From IMG/VR virus record IMGVR_UViG_3300028581_000063, positions 1 to 49,645 of that record: a stretch of DNA of 49,645 nt. One strand, given 5' to 3'. This document shows positions 180 through 49,103 of the stretch, in pieces (positions within the stretch are counted from its first letter, which is position 1; the number at the start of each line of letters is the position of its first letter). The stretch comes from a virus. The notes below the pieces were generated by a model, which was not told where the DNA came from, searched no databases, and worked only from the letters and a program-made list of their open reading frames with translations. The position numbers were made by a program, and so were the translations under genes.

Positions 180-1661
180 ATGAAAAAAGATAATAATAAA
201 GAAAAAGAACCAATGTTTGAAAATCCTATTTTTGAGAGGATTGTTAGAATAATTAATTCGTCTATTACTGCTGGAGAAGTTCAAGCTCTTGAAAAAAAGC
301 TAGGTTTTAATAAAACCATACTAAAACTTTTAGAAACTGAAAATGAAAATAAACAGTTGGCATTATTATTGATTTCAGAAATTTCTGCTGATTATTTCAA
401 ACAATTTATTCATTTACAAAATGACAAAAGTATTGTAAAAACAGCTATTTTAAAAAATTATTTGATATATTATAGTATTTCTGATCAGTTAAAAAAAGAT
501 AAGGAAATATGAGAAACTGTTGTAGAATCAATGGTTCGTGACTGAAGAAATTTCTTTGAAATAGAAAAGTTTATAGAAGAAAATTTTTTAAAAGATAAAC
601 AAATATTATATAAAAAATATGAGCATACTTTAGAGTTATCTAACAGGGTTATTTTAAATGATCTAAGTAAACAAATATTAATATTAAAACAAACAAATAA
701 AGCTTTTTATGATATTCTTATTAAATTATGATTTGTTGTAAAAAATTTTAGTAAACTTGAAATAAGTAAATCCTTAGTTTTTGATATTACAAATAAAATA
801 TTATTAGATGAAGAATATATAAAACTACAAGAAAACGATAAGCTATTATATAAACAGAGTTATTTAGAAAAAATATTTAGAATAAGTATTAAATGAATAC
901 ATAAAGATATTAAATATATTTTTGATATTCTTCTAGAATTAATTCAAATTAATGAATCAAAAAGTAAATTAAAACACCAAGAAAAATTAGATAAAGAACA
1001 AGAAGCGAATGATGATGATACTAAAACTGAAAAAGATGAAGATTCAAAAATTGATCAAAAAGAACAAGAATTTAATGAATTATTAGAATATTCATATTTG
1101 GATTCTTATGTGCAAAAAGTAGACGGATGATATAATATAGATACTCTTGCATGAAAAAAATTATTTTTAGCAGATGAGCAAAAAGATAAATTTACTTCTA
1201 AATCTTTGACAAATTATGTTAAATTTTATAATACATTAACTTATTTATGATTAAATTTTTTATGGGATAAGCATTCTTATGATTTCACTATTCTATGCAA
1301 TAATAAATTTTGATTTAATCATATTTATTGAGCATGAATAACAGAAGTAAAGCTATTATCTGTTTTGAATCTAATATGAAAGAATGTATGAATTCCAGAA
1401 ACAGAATTTTATGTAGATGAAAATGAAAGTTTTTCAGAAGATTGACAGAAGATTCAAAAAAGAGAAAAAAAATTATCTTGTTTCAGAGATTTATGAGAAG
1501 CAAATCTAGCATTTTTAGATATAAAATCAACATGAAAAATAAATTCTGTAATGTATTCAGATAATTCTGCTTTTTGAAACTGAGCTATAGAAAATAAGCT
1601 TAGGGAAAACGATTGTATTGATAGAAAAAAGCATAATTTAAATATTACAGAGTGGAAATAA
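180..1661 (+). CDS. Hypothetical protein, 493 aa (host)
   Basis: Open for 494 codons only if TGA is Gly; the first TGA is at 510. I do not recognise a family. The N-terminal two thirds is charged and mostly helical. Around residues 260-300 there is a low-complexity acidic/lysine stretch, likely a linker. The C-terminal part, from about residue 310, is more globular and glycine-containing. No signal peptide or membrane segment is evident. It stands alone, with its own upstream -10-like box and a downstream hairpin terminator, and faces the convergent L,D-transpeptidase gene. It lies outside the prophage, so it is a chromosomal gene of the host. Confidence 0.8.
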
Positions 1662-1712: not shown

Positions 1713-2803
1713 TTAATATATATTTGTAGTATCTATTTTAACATTTTCTACTCATAACTCTACCATTAATTTAAAAATATGCTCCATAAAAAATGCTCAA
1801 ACTCTTATACATCAATTAGAACGAGGCCATCAATCAACAGATCAAGTGCTTACATGTATCCAAAGTGGACCTTTAATATGTACGGCATAAGGCATTACAG
1901 CTCATCACTTTTCTACTACCCTTCAATTTATATCTTTTATTTTAGGATATTCAGAAGAAGTATGTAGCATATCAGGATTTTTTATTCAGTAAGTTACTAG
2001 TATAGGAGTTTCATGTCAATCGGGTAATCATGGCATTCAGTCCTTTAATCAAGGAGAACAATATGTTGCTAATTCTAGTTTTCAATTTACATAAAATGCC
2101 AATGCAGTTTTTCAATCTACATTTTTAAATATAATTTCACTTTTACCACTATCATTAGATTCAGGAAATACACCTACAAGTTTTTCGTTAATATATGTTC
2201 AAGGTTTATTTATTCATATATCACTTCAATAAAAAGTTTTTATATTAAATACATTAAGACTTCAATTTAAAGCTCATTCTACTTGATTATATCATTTTAG
2301 ATTTTTATATATTTCGATTCTTTTTAATACCTCAGGACTTAATTCATCAGGATTATTCATATAATATTCTAAATATATTTTCTCCAATGTATTAGGTCAT
2401 AAAATTCCATCTTCGACCAATTCTAATTCTGATTGTAACTCAGTTACTTTTGCTACGAATTCTCATGAATCATTACAATCGCTTAAATTGAAAAAAGTAC
2501 AGAAATTGTCTATTTCTATTTTTCAAACAAATTTAGTTGAACTTTCAAATTTTATATTATTTGTATCTGGTATATCTTGAATAGTTCAAGAATTTTGAAC
2601 TTTGGGAATATTATAATTATTAGAACCATCATATTCATCAATAGGTACCCATTTTTTTTTCAAGCATTTTCAGTATCAAATACAGGTTTATTTACTACCT
2701 CTTCAACATAACCTGCAGTTCTATCAAGTACATATTCTACCGCATTAACTCATGGACTAATAGATAATATAGCTGCTGCTAACATAGTTTCAAATCTATT
2801 CAT
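1713..2803 (-). CDS. L,D-transpeptidase (YkuD fold), frame broken at an A9 run
   Basis: The C-terminal domain has the YkuD signature: a His-containing HIKGPLWIHVSTGS stretch followed by SNGCIR, with the catalytic Cys. These enzymes cross-link peptidoglycan outside the cell membrane. The start at 2801-2803 gives a signal peptide (MNRFETMLAAAILSISPGVNA) with a plausible Ala cleavage site. The span of 1091 nt is one base short of 364 codons. Residues 1 to about 50 are in one frame and the rest in the -1 frame. The switch falls at nine A's (2652-2660), read in the first frame as TGA-AAA-AAA-AAT. A -1 slip on A-AAA-AAA, or transcript slippage adding one A, would give the intact protein of about 363 aa. 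A sequencing indel is equally possible. The gene has its own strong promoter and is convergent with the gene at 180. Confidence 0.8.
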
Positions 2804-2833: not shown

Positions 2834-2862
2834 ATAATATATACAAAAAAGACAAATGTCAA
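2834..2862 (-). promoter_or_regulatory. Promoter of the L,D-transpeptidase gene
   Basis: On the minus strand a perfect -35 TTGACA (2857-2862) is followed after exactly 17 nt by TATTAT (2834-2839), upstream of the ATG at 2803. It is divergent from ssrA. Confidence 0.6.
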
Positions 2863-2909: not shown

Positions 2910-3373
2910 GGGGTTAATCTTGGTTTCTATCGAGAGAATCGCTCGGGTCATATGCTATCTGGGAGATGTTTGTGACTTCCATAATCAATTACAAACAAAC
3001 ATAAATGCAAACACTTTTGTAAGAGCAAAAGCTAGCCTAGCTAGATTTGCTACTGGTTTAAAAACTCCAGTAATGGTTGTTGCTTAATTTATATTAGCAT
3101 CAACTAGTAGCCTTCACTTAGTGATGAGCACCGATTGGTCTGCTACACAGTTTATAAAAATCCCCACTCTTGGAGAGATATAAACTTATTAAATAAGAGT
3201 TTTTTCTGAAACGGTTTTGATTTAATCTTGTTTTAGAAAAATATTAACAGATTAAATTTTCTCGTGTACTTTTTGTTTGTACTTCATACACGAGAATATA
3301 AATACAAACTATGATAGTAGATGTATTTCTTTGGCCTCTTGACACGTGGGTTCGAATCCCACTAGCTCCACCA
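2910..3373 (+). ncRNA. ssrA: tmRNA (trans-translation, ribosome rescue)
   Basis: The 5' end GGGGTTA pairs, with two G-U wobbles, with TAGCTCC just before ACCA at 3370-3373. The 3' end has a tRNA-like T arm, GTGGGTTCGAATCCCAC, closely like the tmRNA ending of other bacteria. The 5' end (GGGGTTAATCTTGG) matches the usual tmRNA start. A tag reading frame begins at a putative resume codon GCA (3007-3009) and ends with TAA (3085-3087). The tag is 26 aa, starts ANTFVRAK and ends TPVMVVA. At about 464 nt the RNA is longer than the usual 350-400. The encoded CCA and 3' end form the attachment site of the prophage, whose integrase gene overlaps the last 12 nt antisense. The native terminator now lies at the other end of the prophage. 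Confidence 0.92.
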
Positions 3374-4786
3374 TTTATGAACATTAAGCTTACGAAGGGC
3401 TTTGAAGAGTTGGTTTTCCACTATTCAAAGCCTTTTGTTGTTGTCAATTACGAGTTCGACGACCATAAAATTGATAACTCTCAACTTCTTTTCATAACTG
3501 TAGCTTTTCCGCTTGTCATAGAGCTCAACCAGAAGTTCGACGGTATTGTCTAAATTAGTTAAAAGAACATCATCTTTTTGATCTAATTTGTTTAATTCTT
3601 CATTTATATCCATTAATTCATTAACAATAGAATTTTTAGAATCATTTAATTCTTCACTGCTTATCTCTCCCATAGATCTCATTTTAATTAATGAGGTCTT
3701 TTCATTTTGTAATTTTTTTGATCTTTTTTCTAAACCAAGTCTTGTTTTTTGAGTTTTTTCAATTTCCTCTAAATGATACTCTTTAATTCATTCTTTAACT
3801 TCTTGTTTATATTCATCAGGAATACGATATAAGTGTAAATTTTCATCAAACACTTTTACTATTTCTTTTTGATTATACCACAAATTAAGTTTGGTATCAC
3901 TGTGTAAATGAAAATAAACATACTTTTTCTTACATAGTGATACTGTTAATTTTTTACCACTTTCTTTATGAAAAACTTTTCATTTAAGAGGAGATAAGTC
4001 CCTATCGTATACATAAGTAACCCCTCTAGATATTTTATTAACTTTCTCCCATAATTCTCTAGATATTAAAGCTTGATGTTTTCATTCATACAATTCTCCA
4101 GCATATTCTATAACTCAATAATAAAAAGGATTTTTAACCATTCTTTCCATTACTGTTTTTGTAACTTTTCATCATTTTCTAGTCCTGAAACCTTCTTCGA
4201 ATAAAATATCTACAATTTTTCTTAAAGGTACATTATCAGACCTTAATTCAAAAATTCTTTGAATATAGTGCATATTTCAATCATCTACATCAGCTCATCT
4301 TGTAATTCTATTATTTACATATCATAAAGGTACTGGTCAAACAATTCATCATCATTTAATTTTTGTTTCAATTCATTCCATAACTTTTTTTCTAAGATCA
4401 ACAATATATTGATTTGAAAATCAAAAATGAATAGAAAGCATTAAAACTTGATCTCAAGTAAAAATTCACTCCTTACAGTGAATTTGTTTTATTTTTCAAG
4501 ATTGTGCATACCATTTTAGAGTTCACTCATCAACAGCATTTCTTGTAAGCCTATCTAAATGCTGAGTAATGATTATATCAGCTGTTCATTTTTCAAACAT
4601 CATAATCATTTTATTGAATCATTCTCTTCAAGGTTGTTTTGCACTTTTTGCTTCCAAAATAGTTTCAATTACTGTATATTTATTTAATTTACAGTAATCA
4701 AGACACCATGAAAGCTGAGTATCAATAGATTGAACTTGCATATCATCTCTATCAGTTGATTTTCTACAATAAATTACTACTTTCAT
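3362..4786 (-). CDS. Large serine integrase, C-terminus altered by integration
   Basis: Site-specific recombinase for phage integration. The N-terminus MKVVIYCRKST carries the catalytic Ser10 of the resolvase domain (about 1-150). A recombinase domain follows (about 165-270, with a conserved PLGYVNN opening), then a long basic and coiled-coil region (about 350-450). Start at 4784-4786, 1 nt from the ImmA gene stop. In this integrated form the frame ends KWWS and stops at TAG (3362-3364), inside ssrA. The phage-side sequence at the right end (47344-47457) continues the same frame from KWW with 34 different residues, so the excised phage would encode about 507 aa. Codons for the last 70 residues are richer in G and C than the rest, probably because they also encode the terminator hairpin. 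Confidence 0.93.
3365..3376. other. attL core (GCTCCACCATTT)
   Basis: It overlaps the tmRNA 3' end (through CCA at 3373) and the last codons of the integrase gene on the minus strand (AAA TGG TGG AGC TAG). It matches the right-end core at 11 of 12 positions. Confidence 0.82.
3395..3436 (+). terminator. Phage-borne replacement terminator for ssrA
   Basis: GGCTTTGAA (3398-3406) pairs perfectly with TTCAAAGCC (3424-3432), extended by AA and a G-U pair, and is followed by TTTT. It starts 21 nt after the tmRNA CCA. It lies wholly inside the antisense coding region of the integrase, which is unusually GC-rich there. It would stop ssrA transcription once the native terminator has been moved away. 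Confidence 0.65.
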
Positions 4787-16938: not shown

Positions 16939-17307
16939 ATGATAAAACTATTAAAAACTGATGATAAACATAAAACTGTGAGTTTTTGTGTTTTAACTCC
17001 TGATATTGAGGATAGAAATTGAGATGTTATTACTTCTGAAGAAATAATCAAAACAGCTCACGATTTTGGTGCTAATATGCAAAATAAATTTTTAAACATA
17101 GATCATGAAGATAATACTCATATAGAAAAGGCTAAATATCAATTTGTAGAAAATTTCATAGCTCCAAATGATATAATAGTTTGAGATACTATCGTTAAAA
17201 AATGAAGTTGGTATGTATGAATCAAATTCTTGGAGGAATCACTCTATAAAAGTGTAAAAGCTTGAGATTTTGTCTGAGTATCAATGGAATGATATTTTAT
17301 AGTTTAA
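16939..17307 (+). CDS. XkdF-like prohead protease
   Basis: 122 aa. The run SFCVLTPDIEDRNGDVITSEE, then AHDF, NIDHED, FIAPNDI and DFVGVSMEG matches the XkdF family (PBSX-type putative prohead serine protease). It would mature the capsid around a scaffold. The two genes that follow encode its likely partners. Shorter than many relatives because the trailing part is a separate ORF (17318). Confidence 0.8.
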
Positions 17308-17317
17308 CAAAATAAAA

Positions 17318-17500
17318 ATGCCTAGAGATATAAAAAATGTATTTGTAGATTGAATAAGTCTAGTAAGCAAAAATAATACTCCAGCAGTAGAACAGGCTGA
17401 GAATAAATTTGCACTTTTCAAAACCGTAAAAAAGGATTTGAAAAAAGAAAAACTTGAAAAAATACTCAAGAATTTGAAATGACCTTGAGGGGAAAGATAA
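17318..17500 (+). CDS. Small protein, probable C-terminal part of the protease module
   Basis: 60 aa, starting 10 nt after the protease stop. VFVDGISLVSKNNTPAVE resembles the segment (SLV-KG/A-N) found after the protease core in fused XkdF proteins, then a lysine-rich tail. The last codons run through element 3, giving LKGPGGER; if TGA were stop, the protein would end exactly at the motif. This overlap suggests the motif was inserted over an older stop. Confidence 0.6.
17481..17495 (+). promoter_or_regulatory. GACCTTGAGGGGAAA element 3
   Basis: Exact 15-mer, with the nine preceding bases nearly identical to those of element 4 (TGAAAT before GACC). Unlike the other copies it has no strong hairpin after it, only weak AT pairing. 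The scaffold-like gene starts 46 nt after the motif. Confidence 0.7.
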
Positions 17501-27933: not shown

Positions 27934-30144
27934 ATGCAAAGAGTTGCTTTAATAAACTGAGAAAATATAAATCAAGATTATGATTTATTAAAAATATTTC
28001 AAGCTCTAGCAACTTCATGAGTGGCTGAGTGATTAGAAGTACAAAATGGAATAGTTACTCCATGATTTGCTTTTATTAACATAGTAAGAGATGGTATTGT
28101 ATTTCCTGTTTTATTCCAAAATACCTCAAACTTAACTATTGATACAACTTGAACTAAAAAAGTTTTTATAGAGTTAAATCAAGTGGAAATTGATGATGGA
28201 TCAGAAAATAATTCTGATGGAACTTGAATATGAGAAATAAAAACTTGAAGTGATTATCCAAGTATCAATTTTTTGAAATTAGCTTTTATTGATTCTTGAA
28301 ATATTACAGATGAAAGAGATTTTATAACAACAAAAGAATACTTAAATATAACAAAAATGTGAAATGTTTTTAACTGAGCGAATCAGCTTATAAAAACAGA
28401 TTCACAGTGAAAAATACCAGTTTTAGATTGAAGTAATATTATTTGAATAAAAGCTGAAGTTAATAGTTCAAGCTTAAAATATATGTTATGAACTGAATGA
28501 ATAGTATGAAAAGCCTACAGTGTTATAGATTATGCACAAATTAACTGACAAAATACTCATTGAATGTGACAACCAGGTCAACAAATAATTGCTCAAAGTT
28601 TCTTCTGACAAAAAGTTCCTATAACAAATATTATTTTATTTTTATCAAAATTTAATACACCAAGTGATACCGTATTTATAGAAATTAGAGCTGATAACCT
28701 TTGAAATCCAGGATCTCAAGTTTTGGCAACTTCAGAATCTATTTCATATGACAACATATCTACTACAGCATCAGAAAAAGATTTTATATTTTTAACTCCT
28801 GTAGTTTTAGAACCTTTTCAAAAATATTGGATTAATGTAAAAAGAAGCTGATGAAATGATAATATAAATTATTACTGAGTTTGATATTTTAGTACATCAA
28901 CTTTTACATGAGAAACTAAAAAGTGGAATTGAACGAGTTGGATAAGTGATTCTTGAAATATTTATTTTAAAATATCTTGATATAAGTTAGCAATTAAATG
29001 ATGAGATAATTTCGTTTGAATATGCCAACAAACTTGAAATATTTGAGAAGAATCAATATTTAATCAATTTTATGATTGAAATCAACTAACATTAGTTACT
29101 TGAAATTATTACTGATACGATTCAAACTGAAATTTAATATGAGGATATGATTTTAGAGCAATTTCTGAAACTGAAATTTTATTTGATTCAAGTACTATGT
29201 GAACTGATAAATTTTTCTGAAACTGATCTAATTGAGATTTAATAATAACTTCTTGAACTTATAATCTAGCAGTTTGAGAATACAACTATTCAAATGTAAT
29301 AATAAAAGAGTGAGCTACATTAAATATCACTTGAACATGAACTACACTTATAAAAGTAAATAATCTTTTTGAAAATAATGGTACTTTAAAAGCTGATTGA
29401 ATTTGAAACACTTGAAGTTTTACACTTCCCAACTGAACAGTTTTGTATCCTGGATCTCCTGGAAAATGATGAAACTGATGAGCAGGATGAAATGCATCAA
29501 TAAACTGAATTGCATATTGATGAGCTGGTTGAACTTGAAGTACTAGTTGATATGGTTGAGGAGGTTGAGGTTGAGCATCAGATAGTTATTGATGAGGAGT
29601 TTGATGAACTTGATGATTTCCAGGATGACTTTGATGAGCTGGTTGGTGATGAGGAGCATGATGAAATGCTTATTGAAATAGCTGACAATGAGCTAATTGG
29701 AATTGATGAAGTTTTGCACCACAAAATTGATGACTTTCGGGTTGAGGAGGTTGAAGTAAATCTAACTGATCTTGAGCTGGTTGATGAGCTGGTTGAATAA
29801 AATGATGAGATTGATGAATAATAGTAATTTATGCAAATAAAGTTTGATGAAGTTGAATCGTAACTCTTAAATGATTAAACTGATGAGTTTGATGAAATTG
29901 ATGAGCATGAAATAGTGATAGCTCATGACCAGGATGATGAGGTGGTTGATGAGGTGGTTGAGGTTGATGATGATTGTCTGTAATTGTTTATAACAGTGAT
30001 TACTCTTGATATAATTATCAATTAACAGCTTGAACTTGATGAGCTTGATGAACTGCTTGAGCATACTGATGAGCTGTAGCATGAACTGTTTGAGATCCTT
30101 GAAGTATCTGAAAACAATACAAAATATCTTTTAATTCAATTTAA
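27934..30144 (+). CDS. Tail fibre/adhesin with glycine-rich tip
   Basis: 736 aa, readable only with TGA as Gly. Residues 1-190 form a baseplate-attachment and shaft part. Residues about 190-340 look like a carbohydrate-binding or jelly-roll beta domain (FNTPSDTVFIEIRADN, EPFQKYWINVKR). Residues 340-500 are repeats ending in a beta-helix-like stretch. From about 510 to the end the sequence is extremely Gly-rich (runs such as GYGGGGGGAS and SSGPGGGGGGGGGG). By hand count nearly 80 of the last 225 codons are TGA. This resembles the polyglycine sandwich tips of T-even gp38-type adhesins, which bind host receptors. A tail chaperone-like gene follows. The open frame on the plus strand at 29510-29800 is a shadow of the TGA repeats. 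Confidence 0.85.
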
Positions 30145-31263: not shown

Positions 31264-31785
31264 ATGCAACAAACATATAGATGACTAGATAAACTAAATC
31301 CTAGATTTAGAAAAAAAGTAGAATTATTTTTAAAAGAAGTTTGAAATAAAATTTTTATAACTGAAAGCTGGAGAAGTCAGGAAAGGCAAAATTATCTCTA
31401 CTCTTTATGAAGAAGTATTCCAGGAAAAACAGTAACATGGACTAAAGATTCTGAACATACAAAATGACTTGCAATTGATATTGCTTTTAACTGAAAAGAA
31501 CTTTATCCAAACGATATTTACTTATGGAAAGAAATATCTGAAATTGCTAAAAAATGTTGAATAGATTGGTGATATGATTTATGGAAAACAGATAAACCAC
31601 ACTTTCAGGATAATTGAAAAGAGCTGGTTGAAGAAAATAGTATTTTTTTAAAAGATTCTAAATTCGCAGGATTTATAAAAGATAATTTAGATAAATGATT
31701 TAAGTTTAATGATTATCTAGATGATAGACCAGCTACAATTGCTGATGTAAAAGAATTGATTACACTTTATAGTCAAAGGGAATAG
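31264..31785 (+). CDS. M15-type peptidoglycan endopeptidase (endolysin)
   Basis: 173 aa. Zinc-peptidase signatures are ESWRSQERQNYLY, SEHTKGLAIDIAF (metal ligands His and Asp) and WGYDLWKTDKPHFQ (catalytic and ligand residues), as in L-Ala-D-Glu/VanY-like endolysins. It cleaves cell-wall peptides at lysis. No signal peptide, so the holin-like gene upstream would provide access. Last gene of the virion/lysis operon. Confidence 0.9.
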
Positions 31786-32111: not shown

Positions 32112-34520
32112 ATGGCAATTAAAAAATCTGAATTATACTCTTCTTTATGGAAAAGCTGTGATGAACTTAGAGGTTCAATGGATGCCTCTCAATACAAAGA
32201 CTATGTTCTAGTATTTTTATTTATAAAATATGTTTCAGATAAATATTACTGAAAAGATGATGCTTTGATTGTAATTCCTGATGGATGAAGTTTTAATGAT
32301 ATGGTTGCATTAAAATGAAAATCAGATATATGAGATCAAATAAATAAAATTATAGCTAAACTTGCTGATGAAAATGAGTTAAAATGAATTATTGATCAAA
32401 CAGATTTTAATGATGAGGAAAAACTATGAAAATGAAAAGAGATGGTAGATACTTTATCAAATTTAATTGCTGTATTTGAAAATCCAAAACTAGATTTTAA
32501 AAATAATAAAGCTGAATGAGATGATATCTTATGAGATGCATATGAATATCTTATGAGGCAATTTGCAACTGAAAGCTGAAAAAGTAAATGACAATTTTAT
32601 ACTCCAGCTGAAGTATCTAGAGTAATCTCAAAAGTTATATGAATAAATAAATCAACAAATCAAAATCAAACAGTATATGATCCAGCTTGTTGAAGTTGAT
32701 CACTATTATTAAAAGCTAGTGATGAAGCTCCAAATTGATTAACTATTTATTGACAAGAAAAAGATGGTCCTACATCAGCACTTGCTAAAATGAATATGAT
32801 TCTTCACTGAAATCCTACAGCTGAAATTCATAAAGATAATACTTTATCTAAACCATTTTATAAAGATAATTATGGAGTATTAAAAACTTTTGATTATATA
32901 GTAGCAAATCCACCATTTTCAACAAAATCATGGTCTAGCTGATTTGATCCTGCAAATGATGAATTTTCAAGATTTGATAATTGAATTCCACCTGATAAAA
33001 ATTGAGATTATGCATTTTTATTACATATAATTAAATCGCTAAAATCAACTTGAAAAGCATGAGTAATATTACCTCATGGTGTACTTTTTAGATGAAATGC
33101 TGAAGCTGATATAAGAAGAAATTTAATAAAAAAATGATATATAAAATGAATCATATGACTTCCTGCTAATTTATTTTATTGAACTTGAATCCCTGCTTGT
33201 ATAATCATAATAGATAAAGAAAATTCAATTGAAAGAAAATGAATTTTTATGATGGATGCAAGTAAATGATTTATGAAAGATGGAAATAAAAACAGATTAA
33301 GAGCTCAGGATCTTCATAAAATTGTAGATGTATTCAATAAATGACTTGAAATAGATAAATACTCTAGATTTGTAAGTCTATCAGAAATAGAAAAAAATGA
33401 GTACAATTTAAATATTCCTAGATATATTGATACTTCAGAACTTGAAGATTTACAAAATATAGAAGCTCATTTGAAATGATGAATCCCAAATTCTGATATA
33501 GAAAAAATGTCGGAATATTTTAATGTATTTAAAAATCTTAAATCTGAACTATTTGAAGATACTAGACCTTGATTTTCAAAAATTAAAATTGATGAAGAAA
33601 ATATAAAAGATGTTATATTTTCAAGTGAAGAATTTGTAAATTATAGAAGACAAACACAAAATAGATTTAATACATGGAAAGAAAAAACTACAAATATACT
33701 AAAAAATATAGATGTATGAGTTAAGCCGAAACAAATAATAGAAGATATATCAGAATGACTATTAATAACTTTTGAAAATGTTGAACTAATAAGTAAGTAT
33801 GATATGTATCAACACTTGATGGATTATTGGTCTGAAATCATGCAAGATGATATGTATATGGTCTGAATTGATTGATGGGTAGCTAAACCATATAGAATCC
33901 TAGAAAAAAATAAAAAATGAGTAGAAATAGATAAATGATGGACTTGTGATTTGATTCCAAAATCACTAATAGTGAACAGATATTTTAAAGATAAACAAGA
34001 TTACATAGATAGTTTAAATTCTGAATTAGAAGATATTACAAGACAAATTGAAGAATTAATTGAAGAAAATTCTTGAGATGAATGAATTATGGAAGAAGCT
34101 AGAAATGATGCTTGAAATATTTCAAAAACTACAGTGTTAGCAAGATTAAAACAATTGAACAAAAATACTGATAAAGAAGAATATGAAATATTACATGGTT
34201 TACTAGATTTATATTCAATTGAATCTCAAATAAATAAAGATATAAAAGAAAAATCAGATGAACTAGATAAATTAGCTTATAATAAATATGGCGATTTATC
34301 AATTAAAGAAATAAAAACAATTGTAGTAGATGATAAATGGATACATACATTAGAAGAAGCCTTAACTTGAGAACTTGATAAGGTAAGTCAAACTTTAACA
34401 GGTAGAATTACTGAATTAATAGAAAGATATAAAAATACTCTACCTGAATTAACAAATCAGGTAGAAACTTTTGAGTCAAAAGTAACAGATCATCTAAAAA
34501 AGATGGGATTTAGTATTTAA
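32112..34520 (+). CDS. hsdM: Type I restriction-modification methylase subunit (prophage)
   Basis: 802 aa. N6-adenine methylase with N-terminal HsdM helical domain (CDELRGSMDASQYKDYV), SAM motif DPACGSGS at 190-197, where both glycines are TGA, and catalytic NPPF at 266-269. Longer than the usual 500 aa because of a long C-terminal helical and coiled-coil region, typical of one HsdM subgroup. Works with HsdS to modify and with HsdR to cut DNA. Confidence 0.92.
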
Positions 34521-34533
34521 TAACTCCTTAAAT

Positions 34534-35739
34534 ATGCAAGAAATAAAAGTAAGACCTTGATATAAAATGACAGAATTAGGAGTTATTCCTGAAGATTGGG
34601 ATTTAGTTAGAGTTTGAGATTCATTTAAATTTAAAAACTGATTAAATAAAGAAAAAGAATTTTTTTGATACGGAACACCAATTATTAATTACATGGATGT
34701 ATATAATTTTTATTGAATTAAACAAGAAAATATTAAATGAAAAGTTTTTTTAACTAACAATGAATTAAAAAATTTCTCAATTCAAAAAGATGATGTTTTA
34801 TTTACTCGTACATCAGAAACAGTTGAAGAAATATGAATATCAACAGTCGTCACTTGAGATGTTAAAGACACTGTATTTAGCTGATTTGTTTTGAGAGCTA
34901 GACCTTTTAATTCTTTATTTTCAACTGAATTTAAAAAATATTGTTTCTGAACATCTTTAGCTAGAAATCAAATTATTTCTAAAAGTACATATACAACAAG
35001 AGCTCTTACAAACTGAAGAGTTTTATCAGATATAAAAATACCATTACCAAGAAATATTGATGAGCAAGATACTATAGCAAAATCTATAAATGACATATTA
35101 GATCTTATAAAATCACTTGATGAATTAATTGATAAAAAAGAAAATATTAAAGATTGAGCTATGCAAGAATTACTTACTTGAAAAAGAAGATTACCTTGAT
35201 TCAATTGAGAATGGGAAAAAAAGAAATTAGAGAAGACTTTCACAAATATTACAACTTGAAAATTAGATGCTAATGCTATGGTAAAAAATTGAAAGTTTAG
35301 ATTTTATACTTGTGCAAAAGAACATTATTATATAGATAATTATATTTATGATGAAGAAGTATTGTTAATATCAGGTAATTGAGAAAATGTATGATATGTC
35401 CATTATTTTAATGGAAAATTTAATGCTTACCAAAGAACTTATATTTTATTATGATTTAAAGATTATATATTTTTTATTAAATATTATTTGGATAAATATT
35501 TAAAAGATAGAATCTTTGTTGAAGCAAAACTTTGAAGTACTCCTTATATAACAAAAGATACATTAACTGATATGATAGTAAATGTTCCAACCGATATAGA
35601 AGAACAAAAAGCTATTGCTGAAGTTTTATCTGATATGGATAATGAAATTGAGGCTCTAAAAACTAAAAGAGATAAATATAAACAAATAAAAGATTGAATG
35701 ATGCAAGAATTACTTACTTGAAAAATTAGATTAGTATAA
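34534..35739 (+). CDS. hsdS: Type I specificity subunit
   Basis: 401 aa with two target-recognition domains (about 1-165 and 235-370). Each is followed by a conserved spacer helix with GxMQELLTGKxR, the second ending the protein as IRLV. The repeat is also a 25-nt identical DNA repeat (35161-35185 and 35701-35725), which could allow recombination of recognition domains. Targets cannot be read from sequence. Confidence 0.92.
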
Positions 35740-35755
35740 ATTATTTTATAAATTT
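35739..35755 (+). repeat. 17-bp direct repeat left of kwaAB
   Basis: AATTATTTTATAAATTT, identical to 37273-37289. It begins at the last base of the hsdS stop codon. Confidence 0.65.
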
Positions 35756-35763
35756 TATAAAAA

Positions 35764-36300
35764 ATGCTTTTAATAAAAATATGATCTTATTTATTATCCT
35801 TGTTTCCATTAATATTAATTTTATTATTACAACAAAATAAAGATTTTTTTATAAATAATAAAACATCTTTATTTGTAATTTTATGAATATACTTAATAAT
35901 TATTTTAATTTCTTTTTTAAGGTTATATCCAAAAATGAAAATAGTAGGAATTCCTGTTGAATTAAAAAGTATTAAAAAGAAAAATTGAGAACAATTAGCT
36001 TATTTTATGACTTATATAATTCCATTTATTACCCTAGATATAACAAAATCATGACAATTAATATCATTGTGATTAATAATATTATTTATTTGAATTTTGT
36101 ATATAAAAACTAATTTATATTTATCAAATCCAGTATTATCTTTAGTTGGATTTAATATTTATAATTGAAGTTTAAAAGTAGATGAAATTGAAGTTGAATC
36201 TATAATTCTTTCAAGAAAAGATTTTAAAGATATTTTAAAAACTAGATCTATAAAATGAAATTACATCTTAGAAGACGAGGCTGTATTTATTTCAAAATAA
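35764..36300 (+). CDS. kwaA: Kiwa defence membrane protein KwaA
   Basis: 178 aa with four hydrophobic helices (about 2-22, 34-55, 76-93, 99-116) and a cytosolic C-terminal domain starting SNPVLSLVGFNIYNG, a feature of KwaA. In Kiwa, KwaA sits in the membrane with the DNA-binding effector KwaB and detects phage attack. Slightly shorter than the known about 200 aa. Assignment rests largely on pairing with KwaB directly downstream. Confidence 0.72.
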
Positions 36301-36324
36301 TATTTTTTAACTTATATATTTATA

Positions 36325-37269
36325 ATGATAACAAGAGATAATTTATACACATTTCTAAATAATATTGATAGTTTAGAAAATAAAACATTAAATTTATATG
36401 CTATTATTAAAGATTGAGATAATAGTACTATAAAAAAAATAAATATAGATGTTACTACTTCTAATTGATTAACTGAAAAATATTCTACTTTAGCTAAATC
36501 ATATTTATGAGATGAAGTTGTATTTAAAAGTATTGATGAATATGACGATGAATCTAGTAATGTTTATTATTATTTTGAAAACTGTACACCTGAGATGGAA
36601 TTTATAAAAGATATCTGATGGTGAATTCAAGAAAATTTTTCTATTGATGAAATTAAAAATATAGAATGAATAATTGTAAAAATCTGAAATCAAAATGAAT
36701 TTTGTAATTTATATGTTCCATATTATCCAATTTATTTATTAGATAGAGAAAAATGGGCATTATTATTTTCAGATAATTCGCAATTTAAATCATTTGAATC
36801 TGATAAAGTACTTCGCTTTAATAATCAAATTACATTTTTATACTATAAAAAACAAGAAGAGGATATAGTTCTAAGTTTTGATTTTGAAAGAATAGAAAAA
36901 AATTTTTGATATGAAAAAGAATTTACTAAAAGAGCTAATACTAAAATAGAAGCAATTGAAAATTTGTGATTTATTTCAGATGTAGGTCAATTTAAATGAT
37001 ATATTGAAAGTAAAAAATGATTAAGAAATAAATTAATAAAAATACAACAAACTTCTGAAGTATTCAATAAATCAGTCCAAGAAATTAAAAATTTTGTTGA
37101 TAGTAAACCCTTTTTAGCTAGTAAAATTAATTTTGACACTGATGGTAAAATCACTATTACAAGTGAAGAAAAAGCAAGAATATTTTTAAAATTATTAGAT
37201 GATGATTATTTAAAATCTGATTTAACAGAATGAGAATATGAAACTGATAAGAAATCTAAAATATCTTAA
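36325..37269 (+). CDS. kwaB: Kiwa defence effector KwaB (DUF4868)
   Basis: 314 aa, the standard length. The C-terminal signature GKITITSEEKARIFLKLL then DDDYLKSDLT is that of DUF4868/KwaB. The middle carries a NQITFLYYKKQEEDIVLSF strand pair. KwaB binds DNA and blocks phage replication and transcription in the known system. The gene follows kwaA and lies between hsdS and hsdR. Confidence 0.8.
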
Positions 37270-37272
37270 AAG

Positions 37273-37289
37273 AATTATTTTATAAATTT
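37273..37289 (+). repeat. 17-bp direct repeat right of kwaAB
   Basis: Second copy of AATTATTTTATAAATTT, starting 3 nt after the kwaB stop and 13 nt before the hsdR start. With the left copy it frames kwaAB exactly. Confidence 0.65.
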
Positions 37290-37302
37290 AAGCCATATAA
37301 TT

Positions 37303-40300
37303 ATGAATCTAGAAAAAGTCTGACAAATTGAAAGAGCTACTCAAAATAGAGTAGTAAATTTCTTTCAAGCTTACTTATGATATGAATATCTTTGAAATTG
37401 GGAGGATTCAGAAAGAAAAAGTCCTGTAGAGCATGACTTACTTTTTAAAAATCTTGAAAAAAGATGATACTCTGAGAAAATCATAAATAAAGCAATAACA
37501 AAACTAGAAAAAGTAGCTCTTGATACTAGTAAGAGTCTTTATGATATCAATAAAGAAGTTTATTCTATGCTTCGTTATTGAGTAAAAGTAAAAGAAGATG
37601 TAAGTGAAAATAATCAAACTGTATGGCTTATTGATTGGAATAAACTTGAAAAAAATGATTTTGCTATTGCTGAAGAAGTAACTGTAAGAGGTCAAAATAC
37701 AAAAAGACCTGATGTAGTTATTTATATCAATGGTATTGCTTTATGAGTTATTGAACTTAAAAGAAGTAAAATATGAGTAAGTGAATGAATCAGACAAAAT
37801 CTAGATAATCAAAAAGAATTATTTATAAAAAATTTCTTTTCTACTATTCAATTTGTAATGGCTTGAAATGATACTGAATGATTAAGATATGGATCAATAG
37901 AAACTCCTGAAAAATATTATTTATCTTGGAAAGAAGAAAGTGATATTGATAATTTACTTGATAGACATATCTCTCAAGTTTGTAATAAAAATAGATTTTT
38001 AGAATTAATACATGATTTTATTGTTTTTGATAAATGAACTAAAAAACTTTGTCGTCAAAATCAATATTTTTGAGTAAAAGAAGCTCAAAATACTCTTAAA
38101 AAAAGAGAGTGATGAATCATATGGCATACTCAATGAAGTTGAAAAAGTCTTACTATGGTTTGGCTTACTAAATGGATTTTAGAAAACATAAATGATTCTA
38201 GAATCTTAATTATAACTGATAGAGAGGAATTAGATGATCAAATAGAAAAAGTATTCAAATGAGTAAATGAAGATATTTATAGAACTAAAAGTGGTAAAGA
38301 TCTTATAAAACAATTAAATGTAAAAGAAAAAAATCTTATATGTTCACTTGTTCATAAATTTTGAAATAAAACAAATTGAAATGATGACAGTGATTATGAT
38401 GGTTATATTGATGATTTAAAGTCTAGTCTTCCAAAAGATTTTGAAGCTAAATGAGATATTTATGTATTTGTAGATGAATGTCATAGAACCCAATCAGGTA
38501 GCCTTCATGATGCTATGAAAATGATTTTGCCAAATGCAATATTTGTTTGATTTACTTGAACACCATTATTGGCTCGTGACAAGCTAACATCATTAGAAAC
38601 TTTTGGTAAATATATTCATACATATAAATTCGATGAAGCTGTTAAAGATAAAGTAGTTTTAGATTTGAGATATGAAGCAAGAGATATAGATCAAAGAATT
38701 ACTTCTCAAGAAAAAATTGATCAATGGTTTGATGCAAAAACAAGAGGTTTAACTGAATATGCTCTAGTTCAATTAAAGAAAAAATGGTGAACACTTCAAA
38801 GAGTTTTAAGTTCTAAATCAAGATTAACTAAAATATTGTCAGATATATTACTTGATTTTGAAACTAAACCTCGTTTATATGATGGATCAGGAAATGCAAT
38901 GCTTGTTGCAGGTAGTATTTATGAAGCTTGTAAATACTATGAACTATTCCAGGATGCATGATTTAAAAAATGTGCAATAATATCATCTTATAATCCAACA
39001 GTAGCTAGTATTAAATGAGAAACTACTTGATGAGATGAAGAAACTGAGAATATTGAAAAGTATGAAACTTATAGAAAAATGCTTTCAAATTGGTTTTGAG
39101 TAAGTCAAGATGAGGCAATTAAAAAAATAGAAGATTTTGAAAAAGAAGTTAAAAAGAAATTTATAGATGAACCATGACAAATGAAATTGTTAATAGTTGT
39201 TGATAAGCTATTAACTTGATTTGATGCTCCGTCTGCTACATATCTTTATATCGATAAATCAATGAGAGATCATGGTCTTTTTCAGGCTATTACGAGAGTA
39301 AATAGATTAGATTGAGAAAGTAAAGAATATTGATACATTATTGATTATAAAGACTTATTTTGAAGAGTTGAAAAAGCTATTTGAGATTATACATCAGGAG
39401 CTTTTGATGCTTTTGAAAAAGAAGATGTTGCTTGATTATTAACTGATAGACTTGAAAAAGCAAAAGAAGATTTAGATGAAGCTTTAGAAACTGTAAAAGC
39501 ACTTTGTGAATGAGTTTGACCAAATAGAACTACAACTGATTTTATGCATTATTTTATTTGAAAAAATGCAAGTACTGAAGAATTAAAAGCAAATGAACAA
39601 AAAAGACATAATTTATACAAACATGTAGTAACTCTTATTAGATCATATGCAAATATTGCAAATGAAATGAAAGATGCTGGATACTCAGATTATGAAATAG
39701 AAAAAATTAAAAAGGATGTTAAATTTTATAATGATATTAGAGATGAAATAAAACTAGCAAGTTGAGATTACATTGATCTTAAAGCTTATGAACCAGCAAT
39801 GAGGCATTTAATTGATTCTTATATTGCATCTGAAGATAGTAAAAAAATATCAGCTTTTGATGATACAAGTTTACTTGATTTAGTTGTAACAAATATTGAT
39901 AAATTTAAAGAAGCTCTTCCTGAAAGAGTTAGAAAAGATAAAGAAGCTATGGCTGAAACTATTGAAAATAATATCCGTAAATTAATTATTGATGAACAGG
40001 AAGTAAATCCAAGATATTATGAACAAATGTCTAAATTACTTGATGAAATTATAAAACAAAGAAGAGAGGAAGCTTTAGAATATCAAGAATATTTAAGAAG
40101 AGTTGTTGAATTAGCTAAAAAAGTAAAAGAACCATTGAATAATTCAGATACTCCATCACTTATAAATACATCTGCTAAAAAGGCTCTATATGATAATCTT
40201 TGACTTGATATTGAACTAGCTTTATTAGTTCATAATACTATAATAAAAGAGAGAAAAGATTGATTTAGAGATAATAAAATTAAACAAAGAGAGTTGAAAA

Positions 40301-40380
40301 ATGCTTTATCTAAAGTAATACCTGCAACTGTAAATATAGATGATTTGTTTGAATTAATCAAGAATCAAAAAGAATACTAA
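37303..40380 (+). CDS. hsdR: Type I restriction endonuclease subunit
   Basis: 1025 aa. Nuclease motif D137 followed by E151-L-K153 (GVIELKR); SF2 translocase with Walker A GSGKS at 278-282, DECH box at 391-394, and later [15 protein letters not shown] and QAITRVNR helicase motifs; helical C-terminus for binding HsdM. Pumps DNA and cuts at a distance from unmethylated sites. Separated from hsdM/hsdS by kwaAB. Confidence 0.94.
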
Positions 40381-41668: not shown

Positions 41669-41686
41669 TTTTTATATTTTTTGATA

Positions 41687-44600
41687 ATGTCATTAGGAAA
41701 AGCTCATACTTGATATGCATATCAAGATAGATTATCAGTTTATTTTATTTTAAAAGAAATTTTAAAAGGTAGTACTACTACCTTTATTTTTGATTATAAA
41801 GAATATAATAGTGATAAATTTGATGATCTTACAGTATCTAATGAGTTTTGAATATTTAAAAAACAAATTAAACATAGTGATTGATCAATTGAATTTCAAA
41901 AAGACTATTTAGCTAGAGATAGTGGATGATATGATTTATGACTGGATTCCTTATATGAATCATATAAAAATTATCCTGAAAAAGATAATCTATCTGAGCT
42001 TAGAATATGTACTACATGGACAAAACCAATAACTTGAAATAATATATTAAATTATATTACTGAATCTGATTCTATTGAAAAATCTTTCAGTGATTCATTA
42101 ATTTATAAAGTTAATATTGATAACTTATGGAATACTGAATCTTGAATAGATAGTTCATGGAGAATTTTCAAGAAATATATAGAAGAAAACAATATATCTA
42201 GGGGGGAATTAATATTATTTTTAGATAAATTAGTAATTGAAATTAATCTTCCTGAATTTTCAATGAATGTTGAAGATATGTGAAAATTAGAAAAAAATAT
42301 TGAAACATTATTGCAAAAATTATGAATCTGAGCATTTCCTAATGATAAAATAAATGAGAAAGAAACTTTATTAAAATTAGCTGAATTTGTAAATAATAAA
42401 AGATCTAGTTTAAATAAAAAAACATGAATTCAAATTAGTATTAATGAAATATTAAGACATATATGAATAAACCAAACATATTGATCTATTGAACAAAAAT
42501 TCCCAATAGAAGAATATAAGAATATTACTAATAATAATTTTTCAGAGGAAGTAATAAAAAAATTAGAATCTTCAAATAAAATCTTTGTAAAATGAGAACC
42601 ATGAGCATGAAAGTCTTGGTTTGTTGAAAATTTTCAAACTTTTTTATTAAGTAAATCTATTAAATTTGCTAAACATTATTGTTATATATCACTAGAGGAT
42701 TCTTTATCTTCTAATAGAATAAAAACTAATACTTTTTTTTGAAATTTAATAAATGATATTTTATTATCTTTTCCAGATTTAAAATTTCAAAAAGAAAAAT
42801 TATATGCTAGTGATTTAAATGAATTAAATATTTTAATTGATAATATAGATGAAGATTTTATTTTAATAATTGATTGATTAGATCATATAAATAGAATTGC
42901 AAAATTAGATAAAAATATCAGTAATGCTGAGGTTGATATAATAGAACACTTATCTAAATTAAAACTTAATAATAAAACAAAATTAATAGTCTTTTCACAG
43001 CCTCTTGAAAAAGATTTTGAATGATTCGAATATATTTCTTTACCAGTTTGGAATGAAGAGATAATTAAAGAATATTTACAAAAAATATCAATAGATTATG
43101 ATGAAAATTTTGTAAATTTATTATCTGAGAAATCTAAATGAAATGCTTTATATTTAAATTATCTTTTATCTGAATATAAAAAAGGTAGTGATATAAATTC
43201 TCTTCCACTTTATGATTGGAATTTAAAATCATATTATGAGTATTTGATTGATTGAAAAAAAATAAATGATAATGTTATTTATGCTCTTACATGACTTGAC
43301 TTTAGAGTAAATGAAAATGACTTGATTGAGATAACTAATGATTGAGATTATGTAAAAGAGACCTTACAAATATTTTCTCCTATATTAAATGAAGATTTTT
43401 CTAAAGGATGATTAATAATATATCATGAAAGCTTCAGAAGATTTATTATTGAATTACTAGAAATTAAGAAGATCATAGTTAATGAAAAAGTATACGATCC
43501 AATAATTAAATGGCTTGAAGAAAAGTGATTTTACACTTTTACAAAATCATATAGAAATTTATTAACTTTATATATAAAAACAGGAAAATATTTAAAATGA
43601 ATAGAGTTTGTAAATAAAGAATTTATTATTAATAGTTTATATAATTGATACAATATTACTTTAATAGAAAAGAATCATATATTATTATCTAAGTGTGTAG
43701 TAGAAGAAAAGAATTTAGAAAAACTGATTTATGTTTTAGAGAATTCAAGAATTCTTTCAACTGTTTTAAATGATGAATTTCATAATTTAAAATATATTGA
43801 GTCTTTATTGTATGTTAAATGATTCGAAAAAGTTAAAGAATATTTAGAATTTGAATGAGAATCTACTGTTTGATTTTTATTATGACTAGAAATATGTTAT
43901 TTATTAGATATTAATAAACAAAATGCCCCTTGGGAACTTTATTTAGATAAATCAAAATGATATCAATTTAATAATGATGAATACAAAAAATATATAAAAA
44001 CTTTGACTAGATATGCATTAGGTTCAGAAAATATCAAGTTATTATCTAGAATTGCTAAGAATATAATTAAAAATGAAGATTTAATAAGTGTTTTTAATAA
44101 TGAATTTCAATTTTATAAATTAGAATGTGAAAATAACTTAAATTTAGTTGAAAATATTTATAAAAATAAATTTCTAAGTAAAATTTTAGATTTTTCTAAT
44201 AATTTAACTACTAAAAATATAGATGAATTATTAATAGAAATATTAGAGAAAGATATTTTTTTTGAAAAAGATCTTTCTCTAATAAAAGATTTTTTCTGAA
44301 AAATTTATGAATTAGTAAGAATTGATGATAATCAAAAAATTAATGAAGTAGTTCAAAAATTAAGTTTGAAAAATTGGTTTTATAATTGGTGTACATATTT
44401 TATTAAAATTTTAATACTACAAAATACAGATTTTAATTTTAAAGAATTAAAAGAGGCTTTCTCTTATCTTATTTTAGATCTTGAACCTTTTAAGTGAAAA
44501 CCAAGAACCATGGATATTTATGGAATTGAACCATTTATAATTGAATCAATAGATAAATGATTAAAGCTTATTCAAGATAATCCTGAAGAATGGAAAGAAA

Positions 44601-46417
44601 TATTAGATATATTAGAAAAAGTAACAGAAAAAACTACTACTTATTTAACTAATATAGCTTGATGACCACTTACTCCATCAAAAAAATTAGACTTACTTAA
44701 AAAATATCTTAGTCCATTAAATAAAGATTTAATATTATCTAGTATTGAAGATGATGTAAAAGTTAATACAAAAATATATAGTGAGTTAGCAGAAAATTTT
44801 TTTGATTTATCAATATATTATGGAAAATCATGATTAAAAGAAAAATCAGATGAATATTTTTCAAAAGCACTCATTTATTCAATTTCAAATTGATATAGAA
44901 AAGACACAACATTACAAGAATTAATAAATCCTTTATCTAATATTTATAAAATAGATAATGTTAAATGATATTATTATACCAAGAAAGTGGAAAATTTAGC
45001 ATGGACTGTTATTAGTCATACAGAATGATGAAAATGAATAAAATGGTTGCCTTTAAATTGGTTTAAAGAGTATCTCAATATATCTTTAAATGATTCTATT
45101 TTATATTTATTAAATGAATTATTGAGTTCTAGTTATTGATATTATTGGATGTGAGAAGAAATGCTAGAAGAGTTATTAATAAAAATTAATTGAAATATAA
45201 ATCCATTTATAGAAATGTTTATAATAAAAACTTTTCTAAATTCTAAATTTTCAGAAAAGTTTTTAGATTATTCATTGAATGTTTTTGAAAAAGTAGTTGA
45301 AATTGACGAAAAGATTTGAATAGACTTTTTATCATTAATTATTGAGAAATCATATATTAAAGATTATTGAAATTCAAGAGATGATTCTAAAATTTTTATT
45401 GATAGATTAGTATTTTTATCTGAGAAGTTCAACCTAGTATATATTTATATTGATCAAAAAATCAGTCAAGATAATTATACTTCTCAGAATAAACCTATCT
45501 TATCTTGAATAATTAATTTAAACCTTTGAATATCAAATATTAATTCTAAAATGACAAATGATGAGTTAATATTTGATATAATTGAAAATGAATTTATCCC
45601 TGAATCAAAACTAATTAGCTTGTTCTTTATAATAAATCAAAGAAAATTTGATGACTCATTAAAAAATTTAATTAATACATTAGTATCAAGAAATTTTGAA
45701 AGATTTAATAAGTATGAAAAAAAATATAATAAACTAGATTTAGATAAATTATTTATTGAAAGATCAGAACAATATCTATATTATAAAATGTGTGTATTTA
45801 CAACTAAAACATGATGATGGTTTGAATGATTTATTGAAGTTGATAACTTTATTGAAGTTTGAAATATTGATTTTAACACAGCAATAGATTGTTTATTTAG
45901 TATTAATCAAGAAAAATATTATAACATATGAGTACCTCATGATATGGCATCAAATCTTATAATATCAATTTCACAAATTGCAAATAAGTCTGATTTAGCA
46001 TTAAAAATGTATGAGAATTTATATGATATTATTAGTTTTAGAATACCTGATTTAATTGAAGATAAATTTGATGATTCGCTGATAAATGAATTAAATTTGA
46101 ATATGGAAGAAATGTTAATATGTGTTTTAATGTCTAGATTAAGAATATGAGCTACAGAAATATCTAATATATCTATATCATGAGTTATATATTTACTTTA
46201 TAAAGATAAAGATTTATTAATTAAACCAATTAAATGGTTTTTTAAAAATAGTAGCAAATTTCTATATCTAAATAGACAAATATTATTTCAAGTTTTATTA
46301 GATTTCCATAATGAAGTAGATAATAAATATATTATAAATTTTAAGGATGAGATACTTGAATATTATCCAAGTTGAGAATATTCAATAGATTATATTATTA
46401 AACAATTTAATTTATAA
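41687..46417 (+). CDS. Giant STAND ATPase with N-terminal Cap4-like nuclease (Avs-like)
   Basis: 1576 aa. Residues 1-120 start GYAYQDRLSVYFILKE and carry D47 and Q60-I-K62, fitting the DUF4297/Cap4-type PD-(D/E)XK nuclease seen at the N-terminus of Avs2-like proteins. The STAND NTPase has Walker A GEPGAGKS at 303-310 (all three glycines TGA) and Walker B DFILIIDGLD at 390-399. The remaining about 1000 residues are helical repeats, the likely sensor. In Avs systems such proteins recognise a phage protein, form tetramers and degrade DNA. The nuclease assignment is by motif only and the exact Avs type is not clear. It shares its stop with the next start (TAATG). Confidence 0.82.
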
Positions 46418-47337
46418 TGGAAAAAGAATTAACACCAGAATTATATGATTTTTTAATTAATTTAAATTATAGACATAAAGTATTAGATGCTTTTGGTTTT
46501 TGATTTGATTTATATGATATTTTTCAAGAAAATTTGAATACAAAAAATCAGAAATATTGAAAAATTATATCTGAATTATTTTATGATATTCATTCAAAAA
46601 AAATTGTAAATCATATATATGATTCAAATGATTGGTTAGAATCTATAAATAAAGAACTTTATAATTATTTAAATATGTATTCATCTACAGATCAAGTAAA
46701 AATTTATAAAGATATAATGATAGATCATAAGATTCTTACAGCTCAAACAAATTCTTTAACATCTAGACCTCAAGATTTAAAATTTCCTATAGATTACAAA
46801 GAATCATGTTTTTCAGATATTAACGAAATAGAAAATAGATATTTTAGAATATGACACTACGAAAAACAATTATATTCAGAAGATAAATTTAGAGATTGAT
46901 ATAAACAAAAAACTGTTTATTGATGAGTAATTTTTGATAAAAATAAAGATTTTCCTTATTCTGATTATAAATTAAATACAAAAAACTTATATAATTATAA
47001 TGATAGTAAAAATATTATTCTAGAAGAAAATCCTATAGTTACATTTATTCAGACTTTTGATATGTTTGAAAATTATAAAATATTATGGTTTAAAAATGAA
47101 CTCATTAATTTATTATGATTAAAAATTGGAGATTTTAATAGGTGATTGTTTGCAGTAAATAATGAAGATGAGATTATATTAAAGTTTAATCAATGGAATA
47201 GTGAATATTTATGAAATGATATAAAATGAATGATACCGTCTTTTTCTTGAAGTGAATTACTAATTAGAAAAGATTATTTTGAAATATTAAAAACTATATA
47301 TTGAAAGGAATTATTTTATTTAAATAAAATAATTTAA
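46417..47337 (+). CDS. Unknown partner protein coupled to the STAND ATPase
   Basis: 306 aa. Starts within the STAND stop codon, so synthesis is coupled. Aromatic, Asn- and Lys-rich, without membrane segments or recognisable motifs; segments such as GVIFDKNKDFPYSDYKL look globular. The tight coupling suggests a dedicated subunit or regulator. It is the last gene before the prophage right end. Confidence 0.65.
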
Positions 47338-47570: not shown

Positions 47571-49091
47571 ATGGCAAGTCCAAACCAAAATTTCGAAGCT
47601 GAGCTTTTTAAAGCAGCAGATAAATTAAGAAAATGAATAGATGCAGCAGAATACAAGCATATAGTTTTATGACTTGTTTTTTTAAAACATATTTCTGATA
47701 CTTTTTCTGAACTATATGATAAATTAGAAAAAGATGAATATTCAGATTCAGAAGATAGAGACGAATATATAGCTGAAAATATATTTTTTGTGCCCCAAAA
47801 ATCAAGATGGCAAAATATTCATGCTAGTGCTAAACTTCCAGAAATAGGGAAAATAATAGATGAAGCTATGTATGAAATAGAAAAAGAAAATAAAGAATTA
47901 AAAAATGTATTGCCAAAAGTTTTTGCTAAAGAAAATTTAGATAAAACATCACTTTGAGAATTAATTGATTTAATTTCAAATCTGGATTTAAAAAGAGAAA
48001 ATAAAAATTCAAAAGATCTTTTTGGCAGAGTATATGAATATTTTCTTTGAGAATTTGCAAATGCTGAATGAAAAAAATGAGGTCAATTCTATACTCCTAA
48101 GGCAATTGTTGAGCTTATGGTAAATATGATAGAACCTTATAAATGAAGAGTTTATGATCCTGCTTGTGGTTCTGGAGGTATGTTTGTAATGAGTGAAAAA
48201 TTTGTGGAAGATCACCAATGAAATATAAAAGATATTACAATTTATGGTCAAGAATCAAATCAAACAACCTGGAAATTATCAAAAATGAATCTTGCTATAA
48301 GAAATATAAATTCAAGTTTTGTAAAATGGAATACAGAATGAAGTTTTTTAAATGATACTCATCCTGATTTAAAAGCGGATTTTGTTCTTGCTAATCCTCC
48401 TTTTAATCAATCTGACTGGTGACAAGAAATTCTTAGAGATGATGGCAGATGGAAATGATATCCAGTTCCACCAAGTGGAAATGCAAATTATGGATGGATT
48501 TTACATATGCTTTACCATACAGCTCCAAATGGGGTAATTTCAACAGTTTTATCAAATGGATCATTAAGTTCAAATAGTTCTTGAGAAGGGGAAATTAGAA
48601 AAAAACTTATACAAAATGACTTAGTGGAATGTATAGTAGCACTACCAAAACAACTTTTTTATAATACTTGAATTCCTGCTTGTATATGGTTTTTGAGAAG
48701 AGAAAAACCGATTAAAAACAATGAAATTCTTTTTATTGATGCTTCTGAAATGGGATATATGAAAGATAGAGTACATAAAGATTTATCAAAAGAAGATATA
48801 AAAAAAATAGCTGATACTTATCATAATTGGAGAAAATCAAAATCTGCAACTTGAGAATATATAGATATTGTTTGATTTTGTAAATCAGCAAATATTAAAG
48901 ATTTAGAAAAACATGATTTTGTTTTAACTCCTGGTAGATATGTAGGAATCAAAGAACAAGAGGATGATTGAATACCGTTTGAAGATAAAATGAATGAATT
49001 AACAAAAAAACTTTCTGAACAAATGGCAAAAGAAGAAGAAATGAACAATGAAATAAAAAAGCAATTAGAAAAAATAGGGTTTAGAATATAA
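47571..49091 (+). CDS. hsdM: Type I methylase subunit (host chromosome)
   Basis: 506 aa, the classic HsdM length. [16 protein letters not shown] supplies the SAM motif, here with GGT/GGA glycines instead of TGA, and [12 protein letters not shown] is the catalytic motif IV. The C-terminus is a coiled coil. It lies outside the prophage, right of attR, and belongs to a different HsdM subgroup from the prophage copy. hsdS and hsdR would be expected beyond the window. Confidence 0.94.
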
Positions 49092-49103
49092 ACAAATAAA
49101 AAA

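Follow-up and report, generated by a model that had tools for sequence, protein, structure and literature searches.

Nine adenines at the break of an L,D-transpeptidase gene beside a prophage, with a private slippage indel as the favoured explanation

Introduction

Several described systems combine a coding sequence with a homopolymer at which its length can change. In the endosymbionts Blochmannia and Buchnera, poly-A indels are found in otherwise clean genes of AT-rich genomes, and some of these breaks, such as that of dnaX, are common to more than one species (PMC3017870). The same report cites from earlier work a figure of 30% for full-length transcripts (PMC3017870), and a recoding review counts both endosymbionts among the cases of slippage (PMC5009743); in a transcriptome study, as far as its available text goes, the restored frame was not detected (PMC5574713). 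In Thermus thermophilus dnaX, nine A's lie inside the coding sequence, and the account of it used here describes a templated length that gives the full product and slippage that gives a useful shorter one (PMC1088944). Homopolymer phase-variable genes, known from Neisseria, Bordetella and others, have in the accounts consulted a mutable tract near the start.

The present work deals with an L,D-transpeptidase gene split at nine A's in a virus record of 49,645 bases and 24.6% GC, which is analysed over its whole length and is called the window here. The locus resembles the Blochmannia and Buchnera genes in its presumed poly-A indel, its otherwise clean gene and its AT-rich genome, whereas its break is found in none of nine aligned relatives. 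With T. thermophilus dnaX it has in common nine A's inside the coding sequence; however, the gene of the window is broken at its templated length, and a use for the short product is not evident. A mutable tract near the start and a protein that is probably exported recall the phase-variable genes, but the tract is not generally conserved and ON/OFF alleles are not in evidence.

The split gene and its surroundings

The features of the left part of the window, in window coordinates, are as follows.

180..1661, plus strand: gene for a 493-aa protein, convergent with the transpeptidase gene
1713-2803, minus strand: L,D-transpeptidase gene, both frames together, from the reading frames
1713..2687, minus strand: catalytic frame, in the -1 register relative to the N-terminal frame and open to a stop at 1713
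1767..2123, minus strand: YkuD catalytic domain (PF03734), from a profile match with coordinates converted by hand
2552..2803, minus strand: N-terminal frame, 83 aa under code 25, with an ATG at 2801-2803
2652..2660, minus strand: run of nine A's (T9 on the plus strand), site of the frame break, from the letters, codon usage and a run scan
2834..2862, minus strand: promoter-like TTGACA-17-TATTAT upstream of the ATG, a consensus match only
2910..3373, plus strand: tmRNA gene (67.4 bits), divergent neighbour of the transpeptidase gene, whose 3' end is the prophage junction
3362..4786, minus strand: phage integrase of the large serine recombinase type, adjoining the tmRNA 3' end, start of the prophage

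The window is read with code 25, in which TGA stands for glycine: TGA makes up 831 of the 1034 glycine codons of the 48 listed genes. Its left 3.4 kb, with the 493-aa gene, the transpeptidase gene and the tmRNA gene, looks like host chromosome, and beyond the integrase follows a tailed-phage genome with terminase, portal and tape measure. Because the integrase abuts the neighbouring tmRNA and the same gene order is kept in another genome, G122, the split gene probably belongs to the host and not to the phage. The transpeptidase gene of G122 is flanked on one side by the gene for a protein 49.9% identical to the 493-aa protein and on the opposite side by a divergent tmRNA; the spacing between the 493-aa gene and the transpeptidase is about 1.9 kb larger there than in the window. 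The transpeptidase was also considered as phage cargo and rejected, as it lies outside the integrase junction, has no PHROG match at 0.001 and belongs to the order conserved in G122. The host would be a code-25 organism of the Gracilibacteria type. With regard to the promoter-like site, 13 such sites were seen in the region against 11.5 expected.

The catalytic frame matches the YkuD profile at 30.6 bits, above the curated cut-off of 23.4, and the Cys of its S-N-G-C motif is encoded at about 1809-1811. We take S-x-G-C-x-R, with catalytic Cys and His, to be the L,D-transpeptidase motif, and the erfK gene of Blochmannia presumably belongs to the L,D-transpeptidase family as well. In the alignment the motif His, Ser, Gly, Cys and Arg are all present in the window protein, while next to the active site HVST stands in place of HGSD and SNGC in place of SHGC. 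A structure-sequence search gave a single weak match, 4lpq (E 0.048).

A preliminary description of this DNA had proposed that an L,D-transpeptidase gene is split at the nine A's of 2652-2660, and both the frames and the switch point of codon usage confirm this. The N-terminal frame, whose start resembles a signal peptide when read by eye, crosses the run and meets a stop about 32 codons further on, while the catalytic frame opens after a stop 36 nt upstream of the end of the run, and both are thus open around it. The reading frames likewise bear out the proposal that the start, which resembles a signal peptide, and the catalytic part, complete in its own frame, lie one base out of register, and the combined length of about 363 aa put forward for them agrees with the sum of the two frames, which is about 363 codons. 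The run is placed about 48 codons from the ATG, and the catalytic frame is otherwise clean across 316 codons.

Upstream of the run, the N-terminal frame has a codon score of +29 and the remaining frames score -49 and -54; in two stretches downstream, the YkuD frame scores +26 and +83 and the N-terminal frame -52 and -255. In a model trained on 40 other genes of the window, with one -1 switch assumed at most 400 nt from the ATG, the best switch point is 2650, and positions 2645-2662 are within 2 log units of it. The nine A's are the longest homopolymer, and the sole A/T run of at least nine, inside the listed genes. When the 60 A/T runs of at least seven in the window were scored, the frame changed at this run alone, and a separate scan of the runs of each strand gave 72 same-frame runs with the same run as the sole switch. 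By our own estimate, only about 27 of the 46,182 coding positions could have been taken as coinciding with it.

Internal initiation of the catalytic frame was considered and rejected: ATG is absent from the opening of that frame to 60 nt past the run, and the TTG found just before the run would, as a start, drop the export signal. The N-terminal piece on its own matched none of the Pfam families and had no homologue among the relative loci compared, so it is tied to the enzyme by codon usage, position and start, from which we infer that it is part of the enzyme gene.

Relatives of the transpeptidase

A code-25 pattern scan led to eight genome loci (five Gracilibacteria, two Patescibacteria group bacterium and one uncultured bacterium). 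Relatives of the enzyme were searched in those eight genomes and then in 353 genomes of the class to which the genome G008 belongs; 18 of the 353 had a match at E <= 0.001. The loci matched by tblastn numbered 20, and nine of them were aligned (L010, L011, L012, L014, L015, L016, L017, L018 and L019). The other 11 (L006 and L020 to L029), being partial, more distant or cut by contig ends, were left unaligned, and three of these (L020, L023 and L024) likewise have an open frame.

In all nine aligned relatives the frame is unbroken, and in eight of them the open frame is free of A/T runs of at least nine. The ninth, L018, is unbroken although its N-terminal part holds two A9 runs, so that such a run in this part of the gene is not unique to the window; it occurs in two of the ten family members (the window and L018). 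The second of these runs is about 44 codons from the first ATG of L018, compared with 48 in the window, in a stretch that is not confidently alignable, and the start used for L018 in the alignment differs from that first ATG. Export-like starts, judged by eye as lipoprotein-, Sec- or Tat-like, are found in frame with the catalytic domain in seven of the nine (L014, L017, L010, L015, L016, L011 and L019), whereas in the window the export signal is out of frame with it. No obvious export signal was seen in L012, nor in L018 from either candidate start.

The closest relative is L014, the G122 gene described above, with 49% identity. In the tree it groups with the window (support 97) on branches of almost the same length, 0.54 and 0.52, and relative-rate tests with five outgroups gave no acceleration (chi2 at most 1.61). 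Of the 65 columns that do not vary among the seven other close members (the start residue being excluded), the window protein differs at 10, more than any of those seven, which depart at 0-9 of 55-64 columns. The gene looks as though it was constrained until recently, with some doubt over 'recently' due to the 10 departures in 65, some of which are beside the active site. A class-wide YkuD search matched 176 of the 353 genomes and missed five of the nine genomes that hold an aligned relative (G004, G008, G103, G119 and G122); it therefore gives nothing firm on dispensability.

Protein-based scans of genome_contigs and viral_contigs returned no relatives, probably because near-identical peptides are needed, and DNA patterns for the gene and the tmRNA had zero matches in viral_contigs. 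A second copy of the locus was not found in the viral collection, which may omit records near that of the window.

A/T runs in open frames

For the window and for stretches of five TGA-coding relatives (L030-L109), the frequency of A/T runs was compared with shuffles of codon order (20 per set). Runs of at least nine in the open frames of the window number one, against 22.5 expected. The counts seen and expected in the five relatives are 8 and 152, 15 and 180, 13 and 114, 16 and 84, and 9 and 73, and across the window and these relatives the open frames thus contain such runs about 5 to 22 times less often than predicted. Runs of six and seven exceed the prediction in each of the six sets, and those of eight stand at 0.5 to 1.4 times prediction, so the sharp drop starts at nine. 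Baranov et al. 2005, in the text available, regard a threshold of this kind as the length at which slippage hurts (PMC1088944). From this reasoning and the scarcity of the runs, nine would be a slippage-prone length in this group, and A/T runs of at least nine are good places to seek slippage in it.

In the five relatives (1.38 Mb), the frame changes at 34 of 1651 A/T runs of at least seven with coding-like flanks, junction-like cases included. Start and stop distances are listed for 14 of the 34, and eight of these look like gene junctions, where the upstream frame ends before the run or at most 4 nt after it. The remaining six rows correspond to five places (L061, L073, L075, L095 and L098, the last with two rows). 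In G125, an A7 run divides the Flavodoxin_2 gene at L098 11400-11989, with profile positions 1-66 of PF02525 in the upstream frame and 70-196 in the downstream one; relatives of this gene were not found in the other five genomes searched. A different kind of break may exist in the window itself: the head maturation protease frame at 16939-17307 covers only positions 40-150 of the 402 of phrog_3017, a short frame in a different register follows directly at 17318-17500, and 16939-17500 is perhaps a second split gene, in this case with no homopolymer.

Explanations of the split

The explanation that we favour, with only modest confidence, is a private and recent one-base indel in a slippage-prone run of nine A's, resulting in a null or leaky allele of a host gene. 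DNA polymerase would have slipped on the run, whose length is avoided in the genes of this group, and would have changed it by one base just after the export signal of a chromosomal L,D-transpeptidase gene. Ribosomes on an unaltered message would cross the run out of frame and meet a stop about 32 codons further on, so that little or no exported enzyme would be made, and some enzyme may come from messages in which RNA polymerase mis-copied the run. As the tract is of slippage-prone length, a private indel in it is the kind of accident to be expected. This reading takes the base count to be a true variant of the DNA and the indel to be recent; leaky rescue, for its part, may occur.

The main rival is an error of sequencing or assembly, under which the real tract would differ in length and the gene would be unbroken. 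We hold this to be rather unlikely, although much speaks for it: the break is a singleton at the longest homopolymer of the listed genes, the aligned relatives are unbroken, and the otherwise clean catalytic frame is what an intact gene with one miscounted base would give. Moreover Antonov et al. 2013, in the part of their paper considered here, expect homology-validated singleton frameshifts to be sequencing errors and not real indels (PMC3711429). On the other hand, a true indel in nine A's arises easily too, and frame is kept at the other 59 scored A/T runs, which argues that the contig is not generally error-prone, though these runs are of 7-8 and the window lacks another coding A9 that could serve as a control of the same length. 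A leaky gene, in which RNA polymerase varies the length of the run so that part of the messages code for the whole enzyme, would suit the low GC content, the scarcity of runs of at least nine and the unaccelerated rates, and the poly-A frameshifted genes of Blochmannia and Buchnera, with erfK among those that have indels, offer a precedent (PMC3017870). It is nevertheless improbable as the standing state of the gene, as no aligned relative shares the split.

That absence also speaks against programmed -1 ribosomal frameshifting, which is the least credible of the explanations considered. The preliminary description had pointed to A-AAA-AAA as a possible slip site, and the heptamer is indeed present in the right phase; its distinctiveness did not survive, given that 24 out of 40 intact window genes contain it in frame, with 39 copies in total, and that any run of nine A's contains one in phase, so that its presence adds nothing. 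The downstream fold looks ordinary (z -1.1 over 112 nt, with 26 of 200 shuffles as good, pseudoknots being outside the model), and no Shine-Dalgarno-like stimulator was seen by eye. With a common heptamer, a fold that looks ordinary and a break missing in nine aligned relatives, programmed frameshifting is without support, and the comparison of orthologues is largely against the ribosomal slip once proposed, since all nine are unbroken and eight have no A/T run of at least nine. Phase variation, with the run as a contingency tract that toggles an exported wall enzyme on and off, also has points in its favour, namely a wall enzyme with an export-signal-like start, a break just after that start, the longest run of the listed genes and the A9 runs in the N-terminal part of L018. 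Against it, the gene lacks an A/T run of at least nine in eight of the nine aligned relatives, and there is thus no general sign of selection for a switch. That the run is a contingency tract in a code-25 Patescibacterium, with those of the window and L018 as a recurring switch, is accordingly very doubtful. If it were true, a wall-crosslinking enzyme flipped by slippage would give mixed cell surfaces in a prophage-carrying lineage; among the literature matches listed, a contingency tract of this kind is unreported for code-25 Patescibacteria.

As it stands, a single broken copy of a wall-enzyme gene is of little weight. A more general point is that an in-phase A AAA AAA in an AT-rich genome is not evidence of programmed frameshifting.

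Other observations on the prophage and its relatives

A nearly identical serine integrase (about 98% at the protein level) is found at window 3350-4786, L001 6001-7489 and L064 1-1585 (G122). It abuts the tmRNA 3' end in the window and a tRNA-Lys 3' end in L001, and in L064 it is followed by two tandem tRNA-end remnants and then by an intact tRNA-Lys. The integrase sites have the junction TGGTGG (CCACCA) in common; one integrase thus seems to act at the ends of different RNA genes, and the target apparently supplies its last codons. A second integrase fragment of 34 aa, 100% identical, is located at the contig start of L050 (1-320, G122) and runs into sequence that resembles, by eye, the end of the window peptidase gene at 31264-31785. 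A relative of the window prophage is apparently present in G122.

Within the window, the gene at 27934-30144 encodes a 736-aa phage protein with 131 TGA codons as glycine, the second half of which is glycine-rich. The right part holds restriction-modification-like stretches (32112-40380, 41681-47337 and 47571-49523), perhaps defence cargo, with type I-like genes recognised by eye only, and a protein of 1578 aa whose NTPase match is weak and below the threshold. Finally, ARAGORN reports a tRNA-SeC with anticodon TCA at L064 13311-13389 (G122), which may be the glycine tRNA that reads TGA in a code-25 genome.
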